DNA of 33,143 nt from positions 155,836-188,978 of the forward strand of contig PLZD01000025.1 of NCBI GenBank assembly GCA_003151975.1. Reading direction: 5' to 3'. Both the position numbers and the translations under genes were made by a program. Source of the DNA: Elusimicrobiota bacterium. Lineage in GTDB: Bacteria; Elusimicrobiota; Elusimicrobia; UBA1565; UBA9628. The notes beneath the pieces were generated by a model that saw nothing but the letters and a program-made list of their open reading frames with translations, ran no database searches and was not told the origin of the DNA. Position 1 is the stretch's first letter; the number at the start of each line of letters is the position of its first letter. Below, piece by piece: positions 9,145 through 32,780 of this stretch.

Positions 9145-10128
9145 CTAGAACCGGTAGGAGAGCGAGAAGCGGTGGGTGTCGCCCAGCAGGCCGTACGGCA
9201 TCCAGGCGTAGTCCACGCTGAACTTGGAGAAGGTCAGTCCGGCGCCCACGGACAGTCCCGTGGTGCCGTAGAGATCGGCGGAGTTCGAGCGGTTCTGATA
9301 GCCGACGCGCACGGCGGCTGCCATCCCGGGATCGAACGGGATGCGGTATTCGCCGCCCATCGCGAGAAAAGGATTACCGGTGCGCGGCGCGATCATATCG
9401 AGAGAAAGCACGGAGTTCTTGGTCGGCCGGATGCTGTTGCCCAAAGTGAAGGTCGTCGGCAGCATTTCCTGCTGCGAGAGGAAGCGCAGGCGGCCGCCGA
9501 CGTTTTGCGCGCCGCCCGCGATCGTATAGGGCAAAGTGAAAAGGTTGAAATGCAGGCGCGCTCCGAAATCGAAGGCGCCGGTCTCGGCGCTCTCCACGAT
9601 CTTCGAGGTGATGTACTTGGCGCTGACGCCGACGTCCAGGTGCTTGGTCAGCGGAATGCCCCACCCCGCGATGAAGGCGGCGTCCTGGGGCGTGAAGTTC
9701 TGGCCGGTCGGCGCGCCCGTGTTATCGACCATGGAAATCGAGCCGGCGTTGAGGTAGAGCATCGAGACGCCGAAGGAGCCGAGTTGATTGGTCTGCAGGT
9801 CGCGCTCGCGGGCGGAGGAGCCCAACAGCGAGGGCACCGGTTGAGCGTAAGACGCGTATTCGTAGAACACGCCCTGGTAGTACGCGCCGTGAGTGAACGA
9901 CGCTTCGTGGTACTGCAGGCTCGCCAGCCCCGCGGGATTCCAGTAGACCGCGTTGGAATTGGAACACTCGGCATGGACGGCTTCGCCCATGCCTTCCGAG
10001 CGGGCGTCGGCGCCCAATTGGAGAAACTGCGCCGCGACCGTGCCGTTGTCGCTCGAGGTAAAAGCGGCCGTCGCCGGCATCGGCGCCAGCGCGAACGCGA
10101 GCAGCAGCGGCAGCAGCGTCATTTTCAT
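9145..10128 (-). CDS. PorV/PorQ family outer-membrane beta-barrel protein
   Basis: A 327-residue exported protein. Residues 1-22 are a signal peptide. The mature N-terminus carries the PorV/PorQ (UPF0164-like) signature: GTVAAQFLQLGADARSEGMG, then a short segment and NSNAVYWNPAGLASL. The remainder alternates amphipathic strands and ends in HRFSLSYRF, an outer-membrane barrel terminus with a final Phe. In Bacteroidota, PorV shuttles type IX cargo at the outer membrane, and related proteins act in fatty-acid transport. Here the gene overlaps the giant surface-protein gene by ATGA, and that protein has a type IX-like C-terminal domain, so a dedicated export or anchoring partner is a good guess. 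Confidence 0.85.
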   Translation of the reverse strand: MKMTLLPLLLAFALAPMPATAAFTSSDNGTVAAQFLQLGADARSEGMGEAVHAECSNSNAVYWNPAGLASLQYHEASFTHGAYYQGVFYEYASYAQPVPSLLGSSARERDLQTNQLGSFGVSMLYLNAGSISMVDNTGAPTGQNFTPQDAAFIAGWGIPLTKHLDVGVSAKYITSKIVESAETGAFDFGARLHFNLFTLPYTIAGGAQNVGGRLRFLSQQEMLPTTFTLGNSIRPTKNSVLSLDMIAPRTGNPFLAMGGEYRIPFDPGMAAAVRVGYQNRSNSADLYGTTGLSVGAGLTFSKFSVDYAWMPYGLLGDTHRFSLSYRF

Positions 10129-13100
10129 CTTTCTATCGCGAACTTAAGCACGCGAGTCGAGCCGGTGGTCGTCTTGATCAGGGCGAAATAGACTCCGCTG
10201 GCGGCCGGCCGGCCCGCGAAGTTCGTCCCGTTCCACACGACCGTCCCGGCGTTGGACGCGGAGAACTGAATGTCGAAGACCTTCTGTCCCGCCAGGGTGT
10301 AGATGCGCACGCTCCCTTCGGCAGGCAGCGTGTCGAAGGTCAGGTTTGTCGCGTCGAATATGCCCCCGCTGCCGGGCTTCCACGGCACGGGATGAACGCG
10401 GGCCTCGGTCGTGGTGATTCCGGTCGTCGTCGTCCCGAACGCGCCGAAGACGGAGAAGTGCGGCGTTTGGGCCATGACCAGATGGTTGAACGTGTCGACC
10501 ACGGTCGGCAGGTAGACCCATTGCCCGATCGAGGTGTCGAGGGTGTAGACCTTGAGCGTCGACGCGGCGATCGCAGGCGTGAATCCGTCGATGAGCCCAT
10601 CGTTGTTGGCGTCGTTGTAAGGGATGATGATCGTGGCCGTCGAGCCCAGCAGACCCGTGAACTGCGTCCCGTTGACGATCGGCACGATCTCGACGAACAT
10701 CCCGGGGATGAGGAACTGCCTCGTCGGCTCATTGGCGAGCCCCTGCATGAGTTCGGGCACGCTGATCTTGAGCGGATGATTGACGGGGTCGTTGGTGGCG
10801 TAGATCGTCGCCGCTCCTCCGAAGGCGTTCGGCGGCACCACGATTTTTAGGCCCATGTTCGCGCCGAGCATCGTGACCGTGCTCGGGAAGGCGGCGAGGT
10901 AGTCCTGCTGGACTTGGGAGCCGCTCAGAAACCCATTGATGATCCGCACCTCGTCGATCTTCCCGTTGAAGCCCAAGTCGTAGGCCGGAGTCCCCGAAAG
11001 CCGATTGCCGACGGTCACGTTGACGAGCGTGGGTATTCCCGTGGGCAGGTCGCGCGCGCCGCAGGTGCCGGCGCCCGCCAGCACGCCGTTGATATAGATG
11101 TTGTTGACCCCGGTACCCGAATTGTAGGTCCCCGCCACATGGGTCCATTGTCCAGGGACGATCGCCTGAGCCGACACGGCTGCGTTGGAACTTGCGCCGG
11201 TGCAGCCCGAGAAGCGGTACTTCGAGTTGAAGACGTCGAGATAGAAATCCTCGCCGTTAAAGGGACCCTTGGCGACGAGTCCCGCGCCGTTGATTTCGGC
11301 CAGCGTCGCCGGATTGACCCAGGCCTCGATCACGAGCGAGGTCGTGAAATGGAACTGCGCGCCGTCGTTGATCTGAACGAAGCTCTTGGTCTGCCCGGAG
11401 TAGTTCACCGCGGAGCCCAAGCCCGCGGGTCCCGAGGTCCAGGTGGGCGTGGAGGTGCAGCCGTTGCTGATGCACGTGAGCTGGGCCGAGTCGCCGTAGC
11501 CCGAGACGTCCGCCGACACCGTTCCGGTATCCTCGTCGAAATGCCATTGCCCGGCGGCGTTGCCCGCGACCTGGTAGACGTTCGGAGGCGCGCTCGATTG
11601 GGACACGTTCGGGTCGCCGTTGGTCCGGGTGGACGCGAGGACCAGGTAGCCGTTGTTGGTTCCGGGTCCGACCGAGACGGTCGGGACGAGGTCGCCGTTG
11701 TAAGCGCGCAGCTCGGCGAAGTAGGTCGTCAGAGGGAACAAGCCCGCGACGGTGACGACGGTGGAGTGCGGCGTGGAAGTCGTGATGACCGTATTGTAGG
11801 ACGGGTTGGTCGCGACGTCGATCTCGTAGAAGGTCCCAGCGGGATTGCCGTTGGCGCTCCATTGATAAGTGATTGTGTTGCTGCTGACGCCGGAGATGTC
11901 GCCCCCAGCCAGATGCGTCGGAGGGTTGGCCTGGGTGTAGACGTTGACGAACGGCGAAGGGCTCGGCAAGCCCTGGCCGTTGAGCGCCTGGACCTGCACG
12001 CCGTACTGCCCGTTGGTGTTGAGGCCCGTTACGGTGTAATGGAGCGTCGCCGGGAAGCCGTACGGCGGAATGTACGGCGTCGCAGGCGCCACGCCGCCCA
12101 CGGGATTCTGCACGATCTGATAGGCCGGCGGGCTCATGTTCGCGATGGAGGGCCAGGACCAATCGATCGACGAGTTGCTCAGCGCGGCGCCTGTGACGGC
12201 CGGCGGATTGAAGAGAGTCATGGCCTGATTGAAGATGTAAGAGGTGAAGACGGTTCCCGAGGCGTCGAAGTTCTGGCCGTTGAACGCACGCACGCGGAAA
12301 TAATAGGTGGTCCCGGTCAGCAGGCTGGTGATGCCGGCGGATGTTCCGGTCAGGTTGTCGCTGATCCGGTACGGCGTCGAAATCAGGATGGTGAAATTAT
12401 CCGGCGACTCGCTGACCTCGTAGCGCGTGTAGGCCGGGTTGCCGTTCGCGTTCCACTGGAGGACCATGCTGCCGGTCGACACGCTCACGAAAATCAGGTT
12501 GATCGGAGGAAAGGCCTGCGTGTAGCCGGTCACCGACGCGGAGAGCGGGCCGGTTTCTCCGGCGCCGACGTTGTCCTGGGCGCTGACCCGGATCGACTTC
12601 TCCACGTTGGGGCCCAAGCCGGCCTGGCTGTAGGTCACGACGGCGGCGGGATTGTCGAACGGGTTGGGCCCGGGAACCGCCAAGAATGGGAACGGCGCCA
12701 AAGTCGGGTCGATGACCGTGTATTGAAAGGGCGCGCAGAGGTTTGGAGGCGCGGTCCAGCTCCAAGAGATGCCGCCCACGAGGCTGACCGGCACGATGTT
12801 GGTGGGCGCGTTGATCAGGGCGGGAGCGGTCTGGGCCGAGGTCCGCTGGAAGGCGCTGAAGCGGATGTCGGGGGCCGAGGGCGCGCCGTTGTCGTAGGCG
12901 AAGATCCTTCGCGTATAAAGGGTCCCCGGCGTCAGCGCGGCGGTCAGGCCGCCGGGATTTAGGAAGCCGTCTCCCTCGAGGAAATAGGTGTTCTTTTGGC
13001 AGTTGCCGATAGCGGGCGCCACGCCTCCAATGCAGGCGCCGGCAATCGAGCCGCTGCTGATGTTGATGTCGCTTTGGTCCGTCATGAGATACTGCGGGAA

Positions 13101-15416
13101 CGTCGCGGCCGCGCCGGGAGCTTGGTTGCTGCCGATGGGCACGGCGTTCCAGGTCCACATGATCTGCGTCTTGGGGCAGGCGAGGCCCGGGGTTCCTTGG
13201 GCCGAAGTCCCGGAGAAAGCCGGCGGGGTCAGCGGCTGGGTCACCGCGGAGGGCGGCACGGCGCCGCCGGTAAAAGTGTCGGCGGAGAAGGGCGTCTCGA
13301 TGCCGTCGAGGTTCTCGTTGCGCGCGCGGAAAATGTATTTCGACGATTGGTTCAGGCCGTTGATGAGGCGCGGGCTGCCTCCCGTCGCGTTGAAAGCGAG
13401 AAACGGCGAGAGCTGGATCCATGTGGCGCCGTTGTCGTTGGAACCCTGGACTTCGATCGCCGTGTAAGCCGGATTGACCGGGACGTCTCCCGCCTTGGTC
13501 AGATTGAGCGCGATGCTGACGCTCGTGTCGCCGGTTGTCACCGGTCCGGTCGGAACGTCTGGCGGGTAGGCCAAAGTGGCGACGGCCGTCGGCGTCGAGA
13601 GCTCCGGCAGGGACGGACCCACGACGACGCCGTTGCCGGGCGCCGCGTCCTTGTAAGTGGCCTCGACGTCGATGTTGTAGCGAGTATTCGTATTGAGGGC
13701 CGCGTAATTGATTTGCGAGCCGGTCGCGGAGCCGCCTATGGCCGGCGTGATGCCCGTGCAGTCGCTGGCGCCGCAGTTGCCGATGCCGAAGGAGTACTTG
13801 AGATTGGCGTTGGCGTTGGCCGGGCCGGCCGCCACCGGCGGCGCGGAGCAGAACCACGCGGGAACTGCGAACGAGAGGTGCGTTTGATCCCAGGCGGCTC
13901 CCAGGCCGGTCGCCACTTGGAACGGAGCGGGCGGCAGGCTCATCGTCAACTGCTCAACGTCGGCCGTCACGACATTTTGAGCGTTAGACTCTTGGATGTA
14001 CTCGTTAGTGTCCGTTTCCGTGAATATGAAGGGGATATTGGTGTTCGCGCCGCCGGCGGTGGGGATGATGTTTCGGCCACTTCCGAAGCCCCACTGCCAG
14101 TTGGGATTGACGGGCGTCGCGGGCACGGCCCCGCCGCCGGGGCAGAACTGGCCGGAGAGACCCTGGTCGAACTTCGTGTCGGCGGCGATGCTGAACCAAT
14201 TGCCGAACGCGTGCGAGGCGATCGTGCCCCCCTGCAGGGCTTGGCTGTAGATGCGCACCGCGTCGATGTCGCCGACGCCGGTCTGGCCGCCCTCGTTGGT
14301 GACACCGACGGGAGCGCCGCCCACGTACACGGTCGAGGCGGTCCCGGCGAACTTCGCTTGGGTCCCGATGTTGCCGCCCGACACGATGACGCCGTCCTCG
14401 TAAATCGTTTTCTGTCCGCTGCTGGCGGCGACGAAGACCAGATGATGCCAACCGGGCACAGTGGTGACGCTGCCGCCGCAAACGTCGTCGTTGAAGAAGC
14501 CGAAGTACGGCGTGAGCCCCGCCGCCGCGACCGCCGGGGTGTTGCAGTTGCTGGGGATGTTGCCGGCGGGTCGCAGGTCGATGTGAAGGCACTGGTCCGT
14601 GGCTTGCGCCGGGCAGTCGAGCAGGATGGGCACGTCGCCCGAGGCCAAACACGAACCCGAGACGCAGGCGTTGGGGGCGGGGCAGGTGCCCGAGAAGCAG
14701 CCCGAGATACAGTCGCAGTCGGAGGCGCAGGCCGTGACGCCGTCGTCGGTGCACGTGGCGAAATTGCAAAAGCCGCCGGAGCAGCCGTTGTTAGGCGGAG
14801 CGGGACACGCGCCGCCGCCGCCGCTGCAGTTGTCCCCCTCACTGACATTGACCCAGGCCTCGACGGAGAAGGTCCCGAAGCCCGAAAAATCGATGGGCGA
14901 CGCCGATTGTCCGAACTCATGACCGCCGTTGGTCGCGGTCCCGAGGTGGAACGCCTTCTTGAGTCCGACCGTTCCGAGCGCGCCGCTATTCTTGCTATTG
15001 GCGTAAATCGGCCCGCCAAGGCCGCCGTTGAGATTGCCGAGACTCAGGTTGTTGCCCACGCTGGAGGAATCGTTCAGGGTGCTGTCGAAATTCCAGAGAC
15101 CCTGGACTCCGCTGATCACGGACGCGGACGGCGAAGCGTAGGCCGCGCCTCCGCAGACATTGCCGACTAGGCCCGTCGCCGATGTGTTGTTGCCCGTGCT
15201 GACCCATACGCTGAAGGTCGGGTTGCTGGTCTGCGTGACGAAGTTGCCGGAGCCGTCGACGGTCGCCTGAGGGCCGCTGGCGTTGCCGTTCGGGATGCCG
15301 CCTTGGCAGCCGAGAATCGCGAATCCGCCCCATTTGATCTGGGCGTCCGACGGGAGAGGAAGGAACGCCGTTACGAGCGCGAGGAGCGAAATGGCCAGCG
15401 AGGTTTTGAGCTTCAT
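10125..15416 (-). CDS. Giant surface protein: LamG, six Fn3-like repeats, LamG, type IX-like C-terminal domain
   Basis: A 1763-residue exported protein. Residues 1-25 are a signal peptide. About 103-405 is a LamG/concanavalin-like domain (GLWNFDSTLNDSS; FSVEAWVN; GWHHLVFV; GDIDAVRIYSQAL) interrupted at about 195-280 by a Cys-rich insertion. About 614-1260 holds six fibronectin-III-like repeats (starts such as AFPPINL, ANPPTHL; NGNPAYTRYEV and NGNPAGTFYEI are near copies). About 1285-1509 is a second LamG domain (GQWHFDEDTG; GQWTHVAGTY; GKIDEVRI). About 1520-1660 is a beta-rich domain containing DANNDGLIDG, a possible calcium loop. Residues from about 1674 match the FlgD/type IX-like C-terminal domain (VRIYTLAGQKV; WNGTNFAGRPAASGVYFALI). 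Probably an adhesin or glycan binder displayed on the cell surface. The PorV-like gene overlaps its stop. Confidence 0.88.
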   Translation of the reverse strand: MKLKTSLAISLLALVTAFLPLPSDAQIKWGGFAILGCQGGIPNGNASGPQATVDGSGNFVTQTSNPTFSVWVSTGNNTSATGLVGNVCGGAAYASPSASVISGVQGLWNFDSTLNDSSSVGNNLSLGNLNGGLGGPIYANSKNSGALGTVGLKKAFHLGTATNGGHEFGQSASPIDFSGFGTFSVEAWVNVSEGDNCSGGGGACPAPPNNGCSGGFCNFATCTDDGVTACASDCDCISGCFSGTCPAPNACVSGSCLASGDVPILLDCPAQATDQCLHIDLRPAGNIPSNCNTPAVAAAGLTPYFGFFNDDVCGGSVTTVPGWHHLVFVAASSGQKTIYEDGVIVSGGNIGTQAKFAGTASTVYVGGAPVGVTNEGGQTGVGDIDAVRIYSQALQGGTIASHAFGNWFSIAADTKFDQGLSGQFCPGGGAVPATPVNPNWQWGFGSGRNIIPTAGGANTNIPFIFTETDTNEYIQESNAQNVVTADVEQLTMSLPPAPFQVATGLGAAWDQTHLSFAVPAWFCSAPPVAAGPANANANLKYSFGIGNCGASDCTGITPAIGGSATGSQINYAALNTNTRYNIDVEATYKDAAPGNGVVVGPSLPELSTPTAVATLAYPPDVPTGPVTTGDTSVSIALNLTKAGDVPVNPAYTAIEVQGSNDNGATWIQLSPFLAFNATGGSPRLINGLNQSSKYIFRARNENLDGIETPFSADTFTGGAVPPSAVTQPLTPPAFSGTSAQGTPGLACPKTQIMWTWNAVPIGSNQAPGAAATFPQYLMTDQSDINISSGSIAGACIGGVAPAIGNCQKNTYFLEGDGFLNPGGLTAALTPGTLYTRRIFAYDNGAPSAPDIRFSAFQRTSAQTAPALINAPTNIVPVSLVGGISWSWTAPPNLCAPFQYTVIDPTLAPFPFLAVPGPNPFDNPAAVVTYSQAGLGPNVEKSIRVSAQDNVGAGETGPLSASVTGYTQAFPPINLIFVSVSTGSMVLQWNANGNPAYTRYEVSESPDNFTILISTPYRISDNLTGTSAGITSLLTGTTYYFRVRAFNGQNFDASGTVFTSYIFNQAMTLFNPPAVTGAALSNSSIDWSWPSIANMSPPAYQIVQNPVGGVAPATPYIPPYGFPATLHYTVTGLNTNGQYGVQVQALNGQGLPSPSPFVNVYTQANPPTHLAGGDISGVSSNTITYQWSANGNPAGTFYEIDVATNPSYNTVITTSTPHSTVVTVAGLFPLTTYFAELRAYNGDLVPTVSVGPGTNNGYLVLASTRTNGDPNVSQSSAPPNVYQVAGNAAGQWHFDEDTGTVSADVSGYGDSAQLTCISNGCTSTPTWTSGPAGLGSAVNYSGQTKSFVQINDGAQFHFTTSLVIEAWVNPATLAEINGAGLVAKGPFNGEDFYLDVFNSKYRFSGCTGASSNAAVSAQAIVPGQWTHVAGTYNSGTGVNNIYINGVLAGAGTCGARDLPTGIPTLVNVTVGNRLSGTPAYDLGFNGKIDEVRIINGFLSGSQVQQDYLAAFPSTVTMLGANMGLKIVVPPNAFGGAATIYATNDPVNHPLKISVPELMQGLANEPTRQFLIPGMFVEIVPIVNGTQFTGLLGSTATIIIPYNDANNDGLIDGFTPAIAASTLKVYTLDTSIGQWVYLPTVVDTFNHLVMAQTPHFSVFGAFGTTTTGITTTEARVHPVPWKPGSGGIFDATNLTFDTLPAEGSVRIYTLAGQKVFDIQFSASNAGTVVWNGTNFAGRPAASGVYFALIKTTTGSTRVLKFAIER

Positions 15417-30092: not shown

Positions 30093-32780
30093 TCACTCGA
30101 CGGTGACGGACGTCATTTTGTCCCCAATTTCGATCTTGCGGACGACATCCATCCCTTTGACCACCATCCCGAACACCGTGTATTGGCCGTCCAGTTCGTG
30201 CACCGTCGCCAGCATGATATAGAACTGAGAATCGGCCGAATTCGGGTCCTGTGCTCGAGCCATCGCCAACGCGCCCGTGACGTGTTTGCGCGCGTTAACC
30301 TCCAGCTTGATGGTCTGTCCGGTACCGCCCGTGCCGTTGCCGTTCGGATCTCCGCCCTGGACGACGAAACCCGGCACGACGCGGTGAAATGTCAGTCCGT
30401 TGTAGAAGCCCTTCTGCACGAGCTCGACGAAACGCTTGACCGTATTGGGCGCGTCGTTCGAGTAAAGCTTGAGCTTCACGACGCCCCGCCCCGTCGTGAT
30501 CACGATGGCCGATTTCGAGAGGCCGTCGTCGCCCACGGCGAAATTGAAGTCCCGGGCCGGACGCGCGTTTGTTCTTTCCGGCGCGGTCGATGCCGACTCG
30601 GAGCGGGCGGGCCGGAAGCCCAGGTAGTTGTAGCGGTTGCCCGGATCGTCGTAGCTGCGAAACGCGGACCGGACGGACCCGGCGTCGAGGCCCCAGGAGC
30701 CGCCACGATTAACCCGGTCGGAGCCCGTATCCTCCCATGCGCTGCCATCGTCCGGCGCTCCAAAGTACGAGCCGTGATACCAGTCCTCCACCCACTCCCA
30801 AACATTTCCCGCCATGTCGCACAAACCCTGTTCGGTGTTGCCTTTGGATTTCGAGCACACGGGCCAGGTCGAGCTTTTCCCGCAGCCGAGCCCGCCATCC
30901 TTGATGACTGCGCGCTCGCACGTCGCGCCCTCATCGCCCCACGGGTATTTCCAAACTTTTCCGGCGCTGCTCGCCGCGTACTCCCATTCCGCCTCGCTCG
31001 GAAGCCTTCCTCCGGCCCACTTGGAAAACGCCTCGGCTTGGTTCCAGTCAACGCCGACAACCGGCTGGTCGTCGCCTTCAAAGGTCGCGCCCTGGTCTGC
31101 CGCAGCCGTGCAGGCTCCGGCATCCACGCAGGCCTTGTACTGCTTGTTCGTCACCAAGGTCTTCGCCATCTGGAAAGGCTTCACCGTCACTCGATGAGTC
31201 GGCATCGAAGAATTGAGGTCCGAGTCCGAGGAGCCCATAATGAACGCCCCGCCTGGTATCGTCACCCATTGAATCCCCGCCTTGCCGGCCGTCGCCCGCG
31301 TCGGACTCGTCGTGCTCCCCGAGGGCTCGCCGGCCTGCGCTTCTTTCTCTTTTGGGGCCTTGAGCGCCAGTTTTTTAAGCGCCTCCTGCATCGCGCCCGC
31401 CTCCACGTGCGCCGCCAGCTCCTTGGCCATGCCCGGCTCGACGCCAGGTGATTTGATGTACGCCTTCACGAACTCGCCCGACCATGAGCGCTTTTCCTTT
31501 TCCGGCACGACGCCCAATGCCAGCAAGTCCGAGAGCTTGGCCCAGTCGGCGTCTCGCGCGTCGATGCGCTTGCGCTTGGCTTCATCGACGGCCTTTTGCT
31601 GAGCGGCGTAGGCGTCCCACTGCGCCGCGCGTTTGTTGGCAACGTTCGCGAATTTCGGAGCGTCTTTGGCCAATTGCCGCCAACTCTCCGCTTTGTCCCC
31701 GGGTGCCGCGTCCGCGTTCTTGTCCAAATTTGAAGCGGCGTCATATTTCTTTAGAGCCTCGATGTCGACGTTGCGAAAGTCCAAGCCGCCCGCGACGGAA
31801 GAATCCAACGCGCCCGGCGCCTGCGCCTTGGGAACCGCCGGCAAATTCGTGACCTGGAATCCTCCGTCCGCCGAACCGCCGCCGGCCGTCGCTTTTGCCA
31901 GCGCCGCCAAGTCCGGACCTTTTTCACCGGCGCTCGCTCCCACGACGACGCTCCCCTTGCCGATCAAATCCGGCGTCTGATTTCTTCCGGTCAACGTCGC
32001 ATCCAACGCATCGCTGGCGTAGCGCCACAAATCTTTCGCCGTCACTTTCGCTTGCCCGGCCCAGCCGCGAAGACCGCCCAGCACCAAGTAGCTGAACGCG
32101 GGACGGTTCGTTCCCGGCAAAGCGCCCGCGAATTGATCGCCCTTGGCCGCGGTCAGCACCGCCATGCGCGGATCGACCGAGCCCGCGGCCGCGATCGTGA
32201 CCAGCGGTTGAAGGCCCGGCGCGATGCTCGCCCCATCCTGACCGCGTCCAGAAAAACAAGCATCGAGCACGACGACGATGTTGCCGGCATGGCTCTCCCC
32301 GAGCGCCTTCAACAGGTCACCGCGCTTGAGGCTATGCGTCTGCAGGCTCTCGGCTTTCTGCTGAGCGTCCACGCCGACCAACAATCCGTCTTTCCCGTCC
32401 TTCGACGGCGCGCCGTGGCCGATGAAGACGAACCAGAGCGTCCCCTCTGGTCCTACCTTGGCCGCGGCCTTCTGCGCGGCTTCGATGATGTCCTCGCGCG
32501 CCGCGTCGTTGCCCAAGAGCAGCTTGACGCTGCGCGGGGGCGCCCCGCGAGTTTTGGTCAGATAGTCGTACCACGCTTTGGCGTTGGACTCAGCTCCCGG
32601 CACTGGCGGCACGAAGGCGTAACCTTCTACGCCTACGATGACAGCCGCGTCGTGCTCGCCGCCGCCGACGGCGGGAGCGGGGCTGGAAATGTCGGGCCAC
32701 GCGGCTTCTTCACTAAATGCTGGAGATGCCACCGCAATGGCCAGGAGCATGAGCGCCGCGCGATTGGGCCGCAAGTTCAT
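30093..32780 (-). CDS. Exported three-domain protein: caspase-like peptidase, FGE-like domain, cyclophilin
   Basis: An 895-residue single reading frame. Residues 1-23 are a signal peptide. About 44-280 is a C14 caspase-like domain: AVIVGVEGYA, then LWFVFIGHGAPS with catalytic H122 and VVVLDACFSGRG with catalytic C175. About 335-480 is an Ala/Lys-rich helical linker. About 503-726 is an FGE-sulfatase-type domain (WVTIPGGAFIMGSSDSD, GRLPSEAEWEYAA, DMAGNVWEWVEDWY, NRGGSWGLDAG, LGFRPAR) that lacks the FGE catalytic Cys pair. About 757-895 is a cyclophilin-type prolyl isomerase; R800, F805 and Q808 (FHRVVPGFVVQGGDP) match R55, F60 and Q63 of human CypA, and SQFYI and LDGQYTVFG follow. Caspase-FGE fusions are known; the added cyclophilin is unusual. 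It starts 3 bases after the carboxylase stop, without a visible ribosome binding site. Confidence 0.9.
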   Translation of the reverse strand: MNLRPNRAALMLLAIAVASPAFSEEAAWPDISSPAPAVGGGEHDAAVIVGVEGYAFVPPVPGAESNAKAWYDYLTKTRGAPPRSVKLLLGNDAAREDIIEAAQKAAAKVGPEGTLWFVFIGHGAPSKDGKDGLLVGVDAQQKAESLQTHSLKRGDLLKALGESHAGNIVVVLDACFSGRGQDGASIAPGLQPLVTIAAAGSVDPRMAVLTAAKGDQFAGALPGTNRPAFSYLVLGGLRGWAGQAKVTAKDLWRYASDALDATLTGRNQTPDLIGKGSVVVGASAGEKGPDLAALAKATAGGGSADGGFQVTNLPAVPKAQAPGALDSSVAGGLDFRNVDIEALKKYDAASNLDKNADAAPGDKAESWRQLAKDAPKFANVANKRAAQWDAYAAQQKAVDEAKRKRIDARDADWAKLSDLLALGVVPEKEKRSWSGEFVKAYIKSPGVEPGMAKELAAHVEAGAMQEALKKLALKAPKEKEAQAGEPSGSTTSPTRATAGKAGIQWVTIPGGAFIMGSSDSDLNSSMPTHRVTVKPFQMAKTLVTNKQYKACVDAGACTAAADQGATFEGDDQPVVGVDWNQAEAFSKWAGGRLPSEAEWEYAASSAGKVWKYPWGDEGATCERAVIKDGGLGCGKSSTWPVCSKSKGNTEQGLCDMAGNVWEWVEDWYHGSYFGAPDDGSAWEDTGSDRVNRGGSWGLDAGSVRSAFRSYDDPGNRYNYLGFRPARSESASTAPERTNARPARDFNFAVGDDGLSKSAIVITTGRGVVKLKLYSNDAPNTVKRFVELVQKGFYNGLTFHRVVPGFVVQGGDPNGNGTGGTGQTIKLEVNARKHVTGALAMARAQDPNSADSQFYIMLATVHELDGQYTVFGMVVKGMDVVRKIEIGDKMTSVTVE

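Follow-up and report, generated by a model that had tools for sequence, protein, structure and literature searches.

Why should a large exported protein with a type IX sorting domain be encoded together with a barrel protein of its own, and this outside the bacterial groups to which the type IX secretion system has been ascribed? This question is raised by a gene pair in a stretch of 33,143 nucleotides (nt) from an Elusimicrobiota bacterium (assembly GCA_003151975.1, contig PLZD01000025.1, positions 155,836 to 188,978), which is referred to as "the window". The pair comprises a cargo gene (10125..15416, minus strand; open reading frame of 1763 amino acids), whose product starts with a signal peptide, as judged by eye, and terminates in a C-terminal sorting domain (CTD; final 95 residues, 10128..10412, minus strand), and, as the cargo's partner, a gene for a PorV/PorQ-family outer-membrane barrel (9145..10128, minus strand; open reading frame of 327 amino acids). 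The cargo stop codon and the PorV start codon overlap by four nucleotides, ATGA (10125..10128, minus strand), the junction reading GAAAGATGAAAATG, which suggests translational coupling of the two genes.

Published accounts confine the type IX system to Bacteroidota (PMC12618676, PMC4793230) or to members of the FCB group (PMC11285876; here and below, papers are cited for individual passages). The phyla named in the pertinent passages of these three papers exclude Elusimicrobiota, in agreement with the preliminary description of the pair, which had placed the organism outside the classical type IX group. In the open literature, with subscription papers and preprints lying outside the search, no report of type IX components or of cargo–PorV pairs in Elusimicrobiota was found.

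With moderate confidence, we propose that the pair belongs to a sortase-less variant of the type IX system, in which the cargo exits via a SprA translocon and stays on its own PorV by means of an uncut CTD. The evidence comes from the regularity of the pairing, from the kinship of CTD and barrel with type IX components, and from the inventory of the remaining machinery.

Pairing and co-divergence of cargo and PorV genes

The source genome contains 17 PorV-family genes, of which 16 exceed the curated cut-off and one scores 70 bits; three PorV-like matches below 40 bits (C57:46149, C68:29977, C55:126674), none of which adjoins a CTD gene, were excluded. Directly upstream of 14 of the 17 genes, on the same strand, lies a CTD gene, with a 4-nt overlap in 11 pairs and spacings of −1, +1 and +6 nt in the remaining three; the pair in the window is, hence, not a chance arrangement. 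On contig C52, a CTD gene stands directly behind PorV, i.e., in reverse order, which brings the paired genes to 15 of 17 PorVs and 15 of 17 credible CTDs. The last two CTDs, those of a subtilase on contig C17 and of a 14139-codon frame on contig C43, have no listed PorV alongside, so that the genome has two unlinked genes of either kind. Since the CTD profile was built from the 14 paired CTDs, just three of the 17 were found independently.

The frame on contig C43 (G000:C43:18848-61265; L063/L115/L116) has a signal-peptide-like start and a terminal CTD and is followed by a gene that appears, by eye, HEAT-repeat-like; it is predicted to encode a very large surface protein. With other CTD open frames of the same genome reaching 6062 and 14139 codons, the earlier epithet "giant" fits the 1763-residue window cargo in a relative sense only.

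Across the class, PorV-family matches are present in all 37 genomes searched (5–31 each, 554 in total) and so are CTD matches (3–32 each, 571 in total); the two counts are correlated over the 37 genomes with a Pearson coefficient of 0.96, or 0.90 after genome size has been accounted for. A CTD gene was found just upstream in 94 of the 106 PorV genes examined overall. Besides the source genome, this survey covers the best-scoring PorVs of relatives, namely the best locus of each of 29 genomes, 28 of which show the end of a CTD gene just upstream (at L067, the CTD frame has 44 codons only), and the next 60 PorVs listed, 52 of which have an upstream CTD gene, 33 with a 4-nt overlap and 48 within 20 nt; lower-scoring PorVs lie outside it. 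Viewed from the CTD side, a PorV follows within 500 nt downstream in 36 of 40 CTD genes, taken as consecutive entries of the class list other than the genome's own and partly shared with the PorV survey, so that neither survey is independent of the other. Behind the remaining four CTD genes (L316, L321, L329, L335), other genes follow directly, exported-looking in three cases; at L316 and L335, a PorV-like stretch was seen approximately 1.6–1.8 kb upstream of the CTD gene.

For comparison, ten genomes bearing a C25 peptidase and titled Bacteroidota, Rhodothermales/Balneolaceae, Ignavibacteria, KSB1, Calditrichota or Marinimicrobia served as a control. There, no PorV was found near any of the 24 top type A CTD genes (up to 1.5 kb either side, with downstream bases amounting to 626 at one locus, 1033 at another and 1300–1500 at those others for which the length was recorded), versus 36 of 40 in the class (Fisher p 8e-14); the 24 were the best matches of the profile TIGR04183 and, thus, selected differently from the 40. 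When applied to known PorV loci, the PorV profile used in the control succeeded in 60 of 60 and 63 of 63 cases. The control genomes and those of one Margulisbacteria and one Aerophobetes member (G047 and G048) had been picked via PorV loci with an upstream CTD gene, and each control genome holds between 52 and at least 150 TIGR04183 matches. From the PorV side, 80 named loci were sorted by hand into 55 others and 25 from Elusimicrobia, the latter assigned by title in 20 cases and by high identity in five; an upstream CTD gene is present in 23 of these 25. In Margulisbacteria and Aerophobetes, a PorV lies directly behind three of the four type A CTD genes examined, out of five counted; at the two loci by which these genomes had been chosen, one cargo is a subtilase and the other a protease of the clostripain type.

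Three observations were made in passing. At L290 (G047:C10) in Margulisbacteria, a single CTD gene has two PorV-like stretches behind it. In Ignavibacteria, Rhodothermales and Marinimicrobia (L137, L141, L158, L183, L184 and similar loci), a CTD protein of approximately 1050–1300 residues with almost no Pfam domains is encoded directly upstream of PorV; contrary to the expectation that it would be PorU, none of four such proteins showed a C25 domain in Pfam. Finally, an Elusimicrobia-like CTD–PorV pair is present at L119 (DAHXMQ010000367.1), on a contig that is assigned to a Methanoperedenaceae archaeon and was probably misbinned.

Importantly, CTDs and PorVs have diverged together. Within genomes, CTD and PorV distances are correlated with r = 0.88 (91 pairs, 193 comparisons, 21 genomes; three of 94 pairs with a CTD open frame below 80 codons were dropped), a value reached in none of 5000 permutations within genomes (mean 0.43); for the 14 pairs of the source genome, r is 0.74, with 0 of 20000 permutations as high. 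The cargo bodies carried by these pairs are diverse and include kumamolisin-type and S8 (subtilase) proteases, kelch, NHL, beta-helix and LamG/fn3 proteins as well as an ice-binding-like domain just under its cut-off, with fn3 repeats common to several cargos. CTD and PorV, hence, seem to be passed on together as a module while the passengers change, and that they constitute a co-inherited functional unit is, in our judgement, highly probable. This sustains the one-cargo, one-PorV unit of the preliminary description.

The sorting domain and the barrel

On the whole window cargo, TIGR04183 scores 22.2 bits, slightly below its cut-off of 23, while the isolated last 95 residues reach 27.1 bits and are, thus, recognised as a type A CTD. 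CHU_C (20.3 bits) and FlgD_ig (19.1 bits) both stay below their cut-off of 27 on the whole protein, which does not qualify as a FlgD_ig member; five other places in the genome pass. Neither the type B profile TIGR04131 nor PorP/SprF matched the window pair in NCBIfam and Pfam scans up to an E-value of 1. Searched against the PDB, the CTD profile retrieves PorZ (5m11) at 8e-14 and PorU at 8e-10, both well ahead of FlgD at 1.3e-5.

The AlphaFold2 model of the CTD is a seven-stranded beta-sandwich (pLDDT 91.8), with the CTDs of PorZ (Z 13.3), PorU (11.0) and mirolase (9.8) as structural matches, followed by those of NucA (9.2), RemA (8.4) and FspA (8.2), which are level with unrelated Ig-like domains; the comparison comprised 50 rows with no FlgD chains among them and, thus, excludes nothing in this respect. 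Sequence and predicted fold both place the CTD nearest to those of PorZ and PorU, and its position closer to these type IX CTDs than to FlgD is supported. A lysine is present at position −6 from the C-terminal end in 77 of 91 CTDs and is placed opposite a lysine in the HMMER alignment with the NucA CTD. It resembles, and may correspond to, the nearly invariant lysine which, a short distance from the C-terminal end of CTDs, is reported to contact PorV (PMC10994853).

The partner is a PorV-family carrier according to NF033709 (155.5 bits; cut-off 90), while the narrower equivalog models for PorV (67.6 of 250 bits) and PorQ (95.6 of 220 bits) remain below their cut-offs. A profile of the 17 paralogues retrieves PorV in the SprA complex (6h3i_F) from the PDB at 1.6e-34, and the model of the window barrel is closest to the PorV chains 8gl6_F and 6h3i_F (Z 32.5 and 32.4), FadL (31.2) trailing them by approximately one unit. 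The barrel is, thus, of the PorV/FadL type, with approximately 300 residues and N-terminal helices; Pfam scans of the window PorV and nine other PorVs revealed no POTRA or TPS families. As a barrel finder, PF03349 (Toluene_X) was discarded on account of weak matches.

Several PorVs of the source and related genomes carry C-terminal additions. At L056:13130-14620 (contig C39), the barrel is fused to an OmpA peptidoglycan-binding domain (PF00691, 8.3e-25), the neighbouring cargo having an ice-binding-like domain, and TPR-like tails are found at L046, L005, L053, L058, L066, L077 and L083. Such tails fit an anchoring role and might link the complex with the cell wall or with further components of the periplasm.

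Translocon, sortase and motor

A SprA/Sov homologue of 1878 residues is encoded on contig C26 of the source genome, with a TIGR04189 match of 160.9 bits (E 2.5e-47) and four matching stretches in order, and homologues were detected in 35 of the 37 genomes. Of the 16 relatives compared, 14 have copies 46–60% identical to the source copy and two, from outside the order, 30–33%, with alignments spanning about 1860 columns or more in 15 of the 16 and 1456 in one. The sole PDB match of a 13-sequence SprA profile is F. johnsoniae SprA (4e-24); the single protein, searched by phmmer, did not find it. Among the gene neighbours listed for 17 SprA loci, none apart from SprA itself recurs in more than six. 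That SprA serves as the shared exit of the paired cargos is, on these grounds, probable.

The peptidase C25 domain of PorU and the gingipains (PF01364) was found in none of the 17 Elusimicrobiota genomes searched, while it was present in all ten genomes of the six control groups; it was likewise not found in the Margulisbacteria and the Aerophobetes genome, whose completeness is unstated. A PorU-type C25 sortase, as in the type IX system, was, thus, not detected in Elusimicrobiota. Within the window, the GldK model gives 98.5 bits (cut-off 350) on an 895-amino acid protein (30096-32780) that comprises FGE-sulfatase and cyclophilin domains and a caspase-like match below cut-off; another FGE-type family scores better on it.

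By these results, the core of the preliminary description stands: a 1763-residue cargo with a type IX-like CTD does overlap a PorV-family gene by ATGA, as seen from the open reading frames and the NF033709 and TIGR04183 scores, and the SprA homologue to be looked for in the genome is present. The picture that had been set against it, a genome devoid of any other type IX part together with a plain FlgD-like fold, is not the one encountered, given the SprA homologue and a CTD nearest to those of PorZ and PorU. The suggestion of a dedicated export or anchoring system is supported in part, with regard to the one-cargo, one-PorV unit, and needs correction in another respect, as the window pair is one of approximately 15 in its genome and follows a rule of the class. 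With one SprA-like translocon conserved beside many pairs, it probably does not export alone.

As to its further domains, the window cargo (Pfam Laminin_G_3, 97.3 bits; fn3, 81.5 bits) contains a LamG-like (concanavalin-A-like) domain in residues 1343–1503 (10908..11390, minus strand; PF13385, E 1.2e-27; the better of two stretches) and a fibronectin type III domain in residues 970–1049 (12270..12509, minus strand; PF00041, E 5e-23; the best of three stretches). The genes around the pair are ordinary, encoding an M17 aminopeptidase, an epimerase, a CCA-adding enzyme, an AMP-binding enzyme and oligopeptide transporters.

Proposed route, alternatives and known systems

We infer the export route, the uncut CTD and the anchoring from sequence, and the following course of events is conceivable. 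The cargo, equipped with a signal peptide, would reach the periplasm through Sec, and its type A-like CTD would take it through the cell's one SprA/Sov-like translocon, a homologue of which was found and to which this role is provisionally assigned. The cognate PorV, probably produced from the same message by coupled translation, would then take the CTD out of SprA, in analogy to SprA, PorV and CTD of Flavobacterium. As there is no detectable C25/PorU sortase to cut the CTD and free PorV, the cargo would remain docked, and PorV would be a single-use anchor, implying that every cargo needs a PorV of its own. Permanent anchoring with an uncut CTD is, in our estimate, evenly balanced between true and false; it is rated slightly lower than it otherwise would be, since two of the three pairs from Margulisbacteria and Aerophobetes were selection loci.

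Several findings weigh against the sortase-less anchoring just outlined. Regarding the CTD, TIGR04183 recovers just four of the 17 CTDs of the source genome (E 1e-5), its counts and those of the class profile being on different scales; FlgD (1.3e-5) is level with or ahead of the cleaved type A CTDs of NucA (2.7e-5), FspA (0.006) and gingipain (0.024) in the PDB search; and two of four own CTDs tested fit FlgD models as well as or better than TIGR04183. Regarding the machinery, every SprA match lies under the curated equivalog cut-off of 200 bits, and SprA was not found in two of the 37 genomes, G025 (reported 95% complete) and G026 (79%), both of which have pairs. GldM is over its cut-off in none of the 37 genomes and GldL in none of 29, those of outside groups among them; as the controls were equally silent, neither result speaks for or against a motor. 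A sortase of another family may be present, and PorU is not universal in the type IX family, since Bacteroidota classes without it are listed, such as Sphingobacteriia (PMC7323717). Regarding the pairing, a CTD gene is also found upstream at 37 of the 55 PorV loci outside Elusimicrobia, some of them in C25-bearing phyla, so that PorV-side pairing is no mark of sortase loss and the contrast rests on the CTD side; with the selection loci set aside, the independent count for Margulisbacteria and Aerophobetes falls to one of two. Furthermore, CTDs whose contact surfaces are poorly conserved bind to one and the same PorV in F. johnsoniae (PMC10994853), hence, a private PorV is in principle not needed, and duplication of linked pairs without binding specificity could yield the same co-divergence.

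Some of these points sustain other explanations. PorV might act as a dedicated shuttle, moving only its cognate CTD from SprA; an unrecognised protease would subsequently remove the CTD and PorV would be used again. Pairing would then provide specificity or destination, as with type B CTDs and SprF. The type B CTD/SprF pairs of F. johnsoniae show that such shuttles exist and set the destination (PMC12618676), and co-divergence of CTD and PorV fits specificity. However, no C25 peptidase was detected in any of the 17 Elusimicrobiota tested, the CTD is nearest to the non-cleaved CTDs of PorZ and PorU, and one PorV per cargo would seem costly if PorV were recycled; we, thus, regard this explanation as rather unlikely. 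A lower probability still is given to plain linkage, i.e., to an old CTD–PorV operon having been duplicated as a block, with any PorV serving any cargo. It would account for the co-divergence by duplication alone and is in line with the versatile F. johnsoniae PorV and with the unlinked CTD and PorV genes of the source genome, but the CTD–PorV match is kept under very different cargo bodies, and near 1:1 numbers over 37 genomes are unexpected if one PorV sufficed. That the PorV-family barrel is itself the exit channel, SprA having another role, is highly improbable: one barrel per cargo resembles two-partner secretion and pairs are kept in the two genomes without detected SprA, but the barrel is of the PorV/FadL type, devoid of POTRA/TPS families in the PorVs scanned, and the conserved SprA homologue is the better channel candidate.

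Returning to the sortase-less route via SprA, the Elusimicrobiota arrangement is best regarded as a new type IX variant rather than a full member, because the sortase was not detected and the motor is undecided. More tentatively, and with somewhat less than even confidence, the permanent, single-use PorV anchor may be class-wide in Elusimicrobiota and perhaps extend to Margulisbacteria and Aerophobetes; the shared, recycled PorV of Bacteroidota together with PorU would then be a derived economy, and PorU–PorV and PorZ–PorQ would be relics of an older cassette. A class-wide cassette in another phylum would mean that PorV can be cargo-specific, and many natural CTD–PorV pairs (15 in the source genome) would be at hand for learning the recognition code. 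Sortase-free anchoring by a type IX system becomes testable, and gene order would permit the prediction of surface proteins in a little-cultured phylum.

Compared with known systems, the arrangement shares with the type IX system the CTD family and fold, the PorV family, a SprA translocon homologue and the signal peptide. In the latter system, PorV is common to the cargos, with all type A CTDs being described as recognised by it (PMC12618676), and PorU cuts the CTD; P. gingivalis uses PorV to carry type A cargo to the complex where PorU removes the CTD (PMC7463736, PMC11285876). Elusimicrobiota, in contrast, have 1:1 linked pairs and no detected C25 peptidase. The FlgD Ig-like domain is a similar beta-sandwich with profile matches (19.1 bits; E 1.3e-5) weaker than those of PorZ and PorU, and, unlike FlgD, the window CTD ends a large exported protein encoded beside PorV. 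With the type B CTD/PorP-SprF pairs of F. johnsoniae, in which the gene for the cognate SprF-like shuttle commonly comes straight after that of the cargo (PMC12618676), the window pair has in common one partner per cargo and a barrel gene of its own directly after the cargo gene, while its CTD is type A-like and its partner belongs to the PorV/PorQ family. The closest CTDs are those of PorU and PorZ in the P. gingivalis attachment complex, which retain their CTD (PMC11285876) and are anchored, PorU on PorV and PorZ on PorQ (PMC7463736), so that there an uncut CTD is held on a PorV/PorQ barrel. What is confined to two special machine parts in P. gingivalis would in Elusimicrobiota, with no C25 domain found, be a general rule for CTD cargos.

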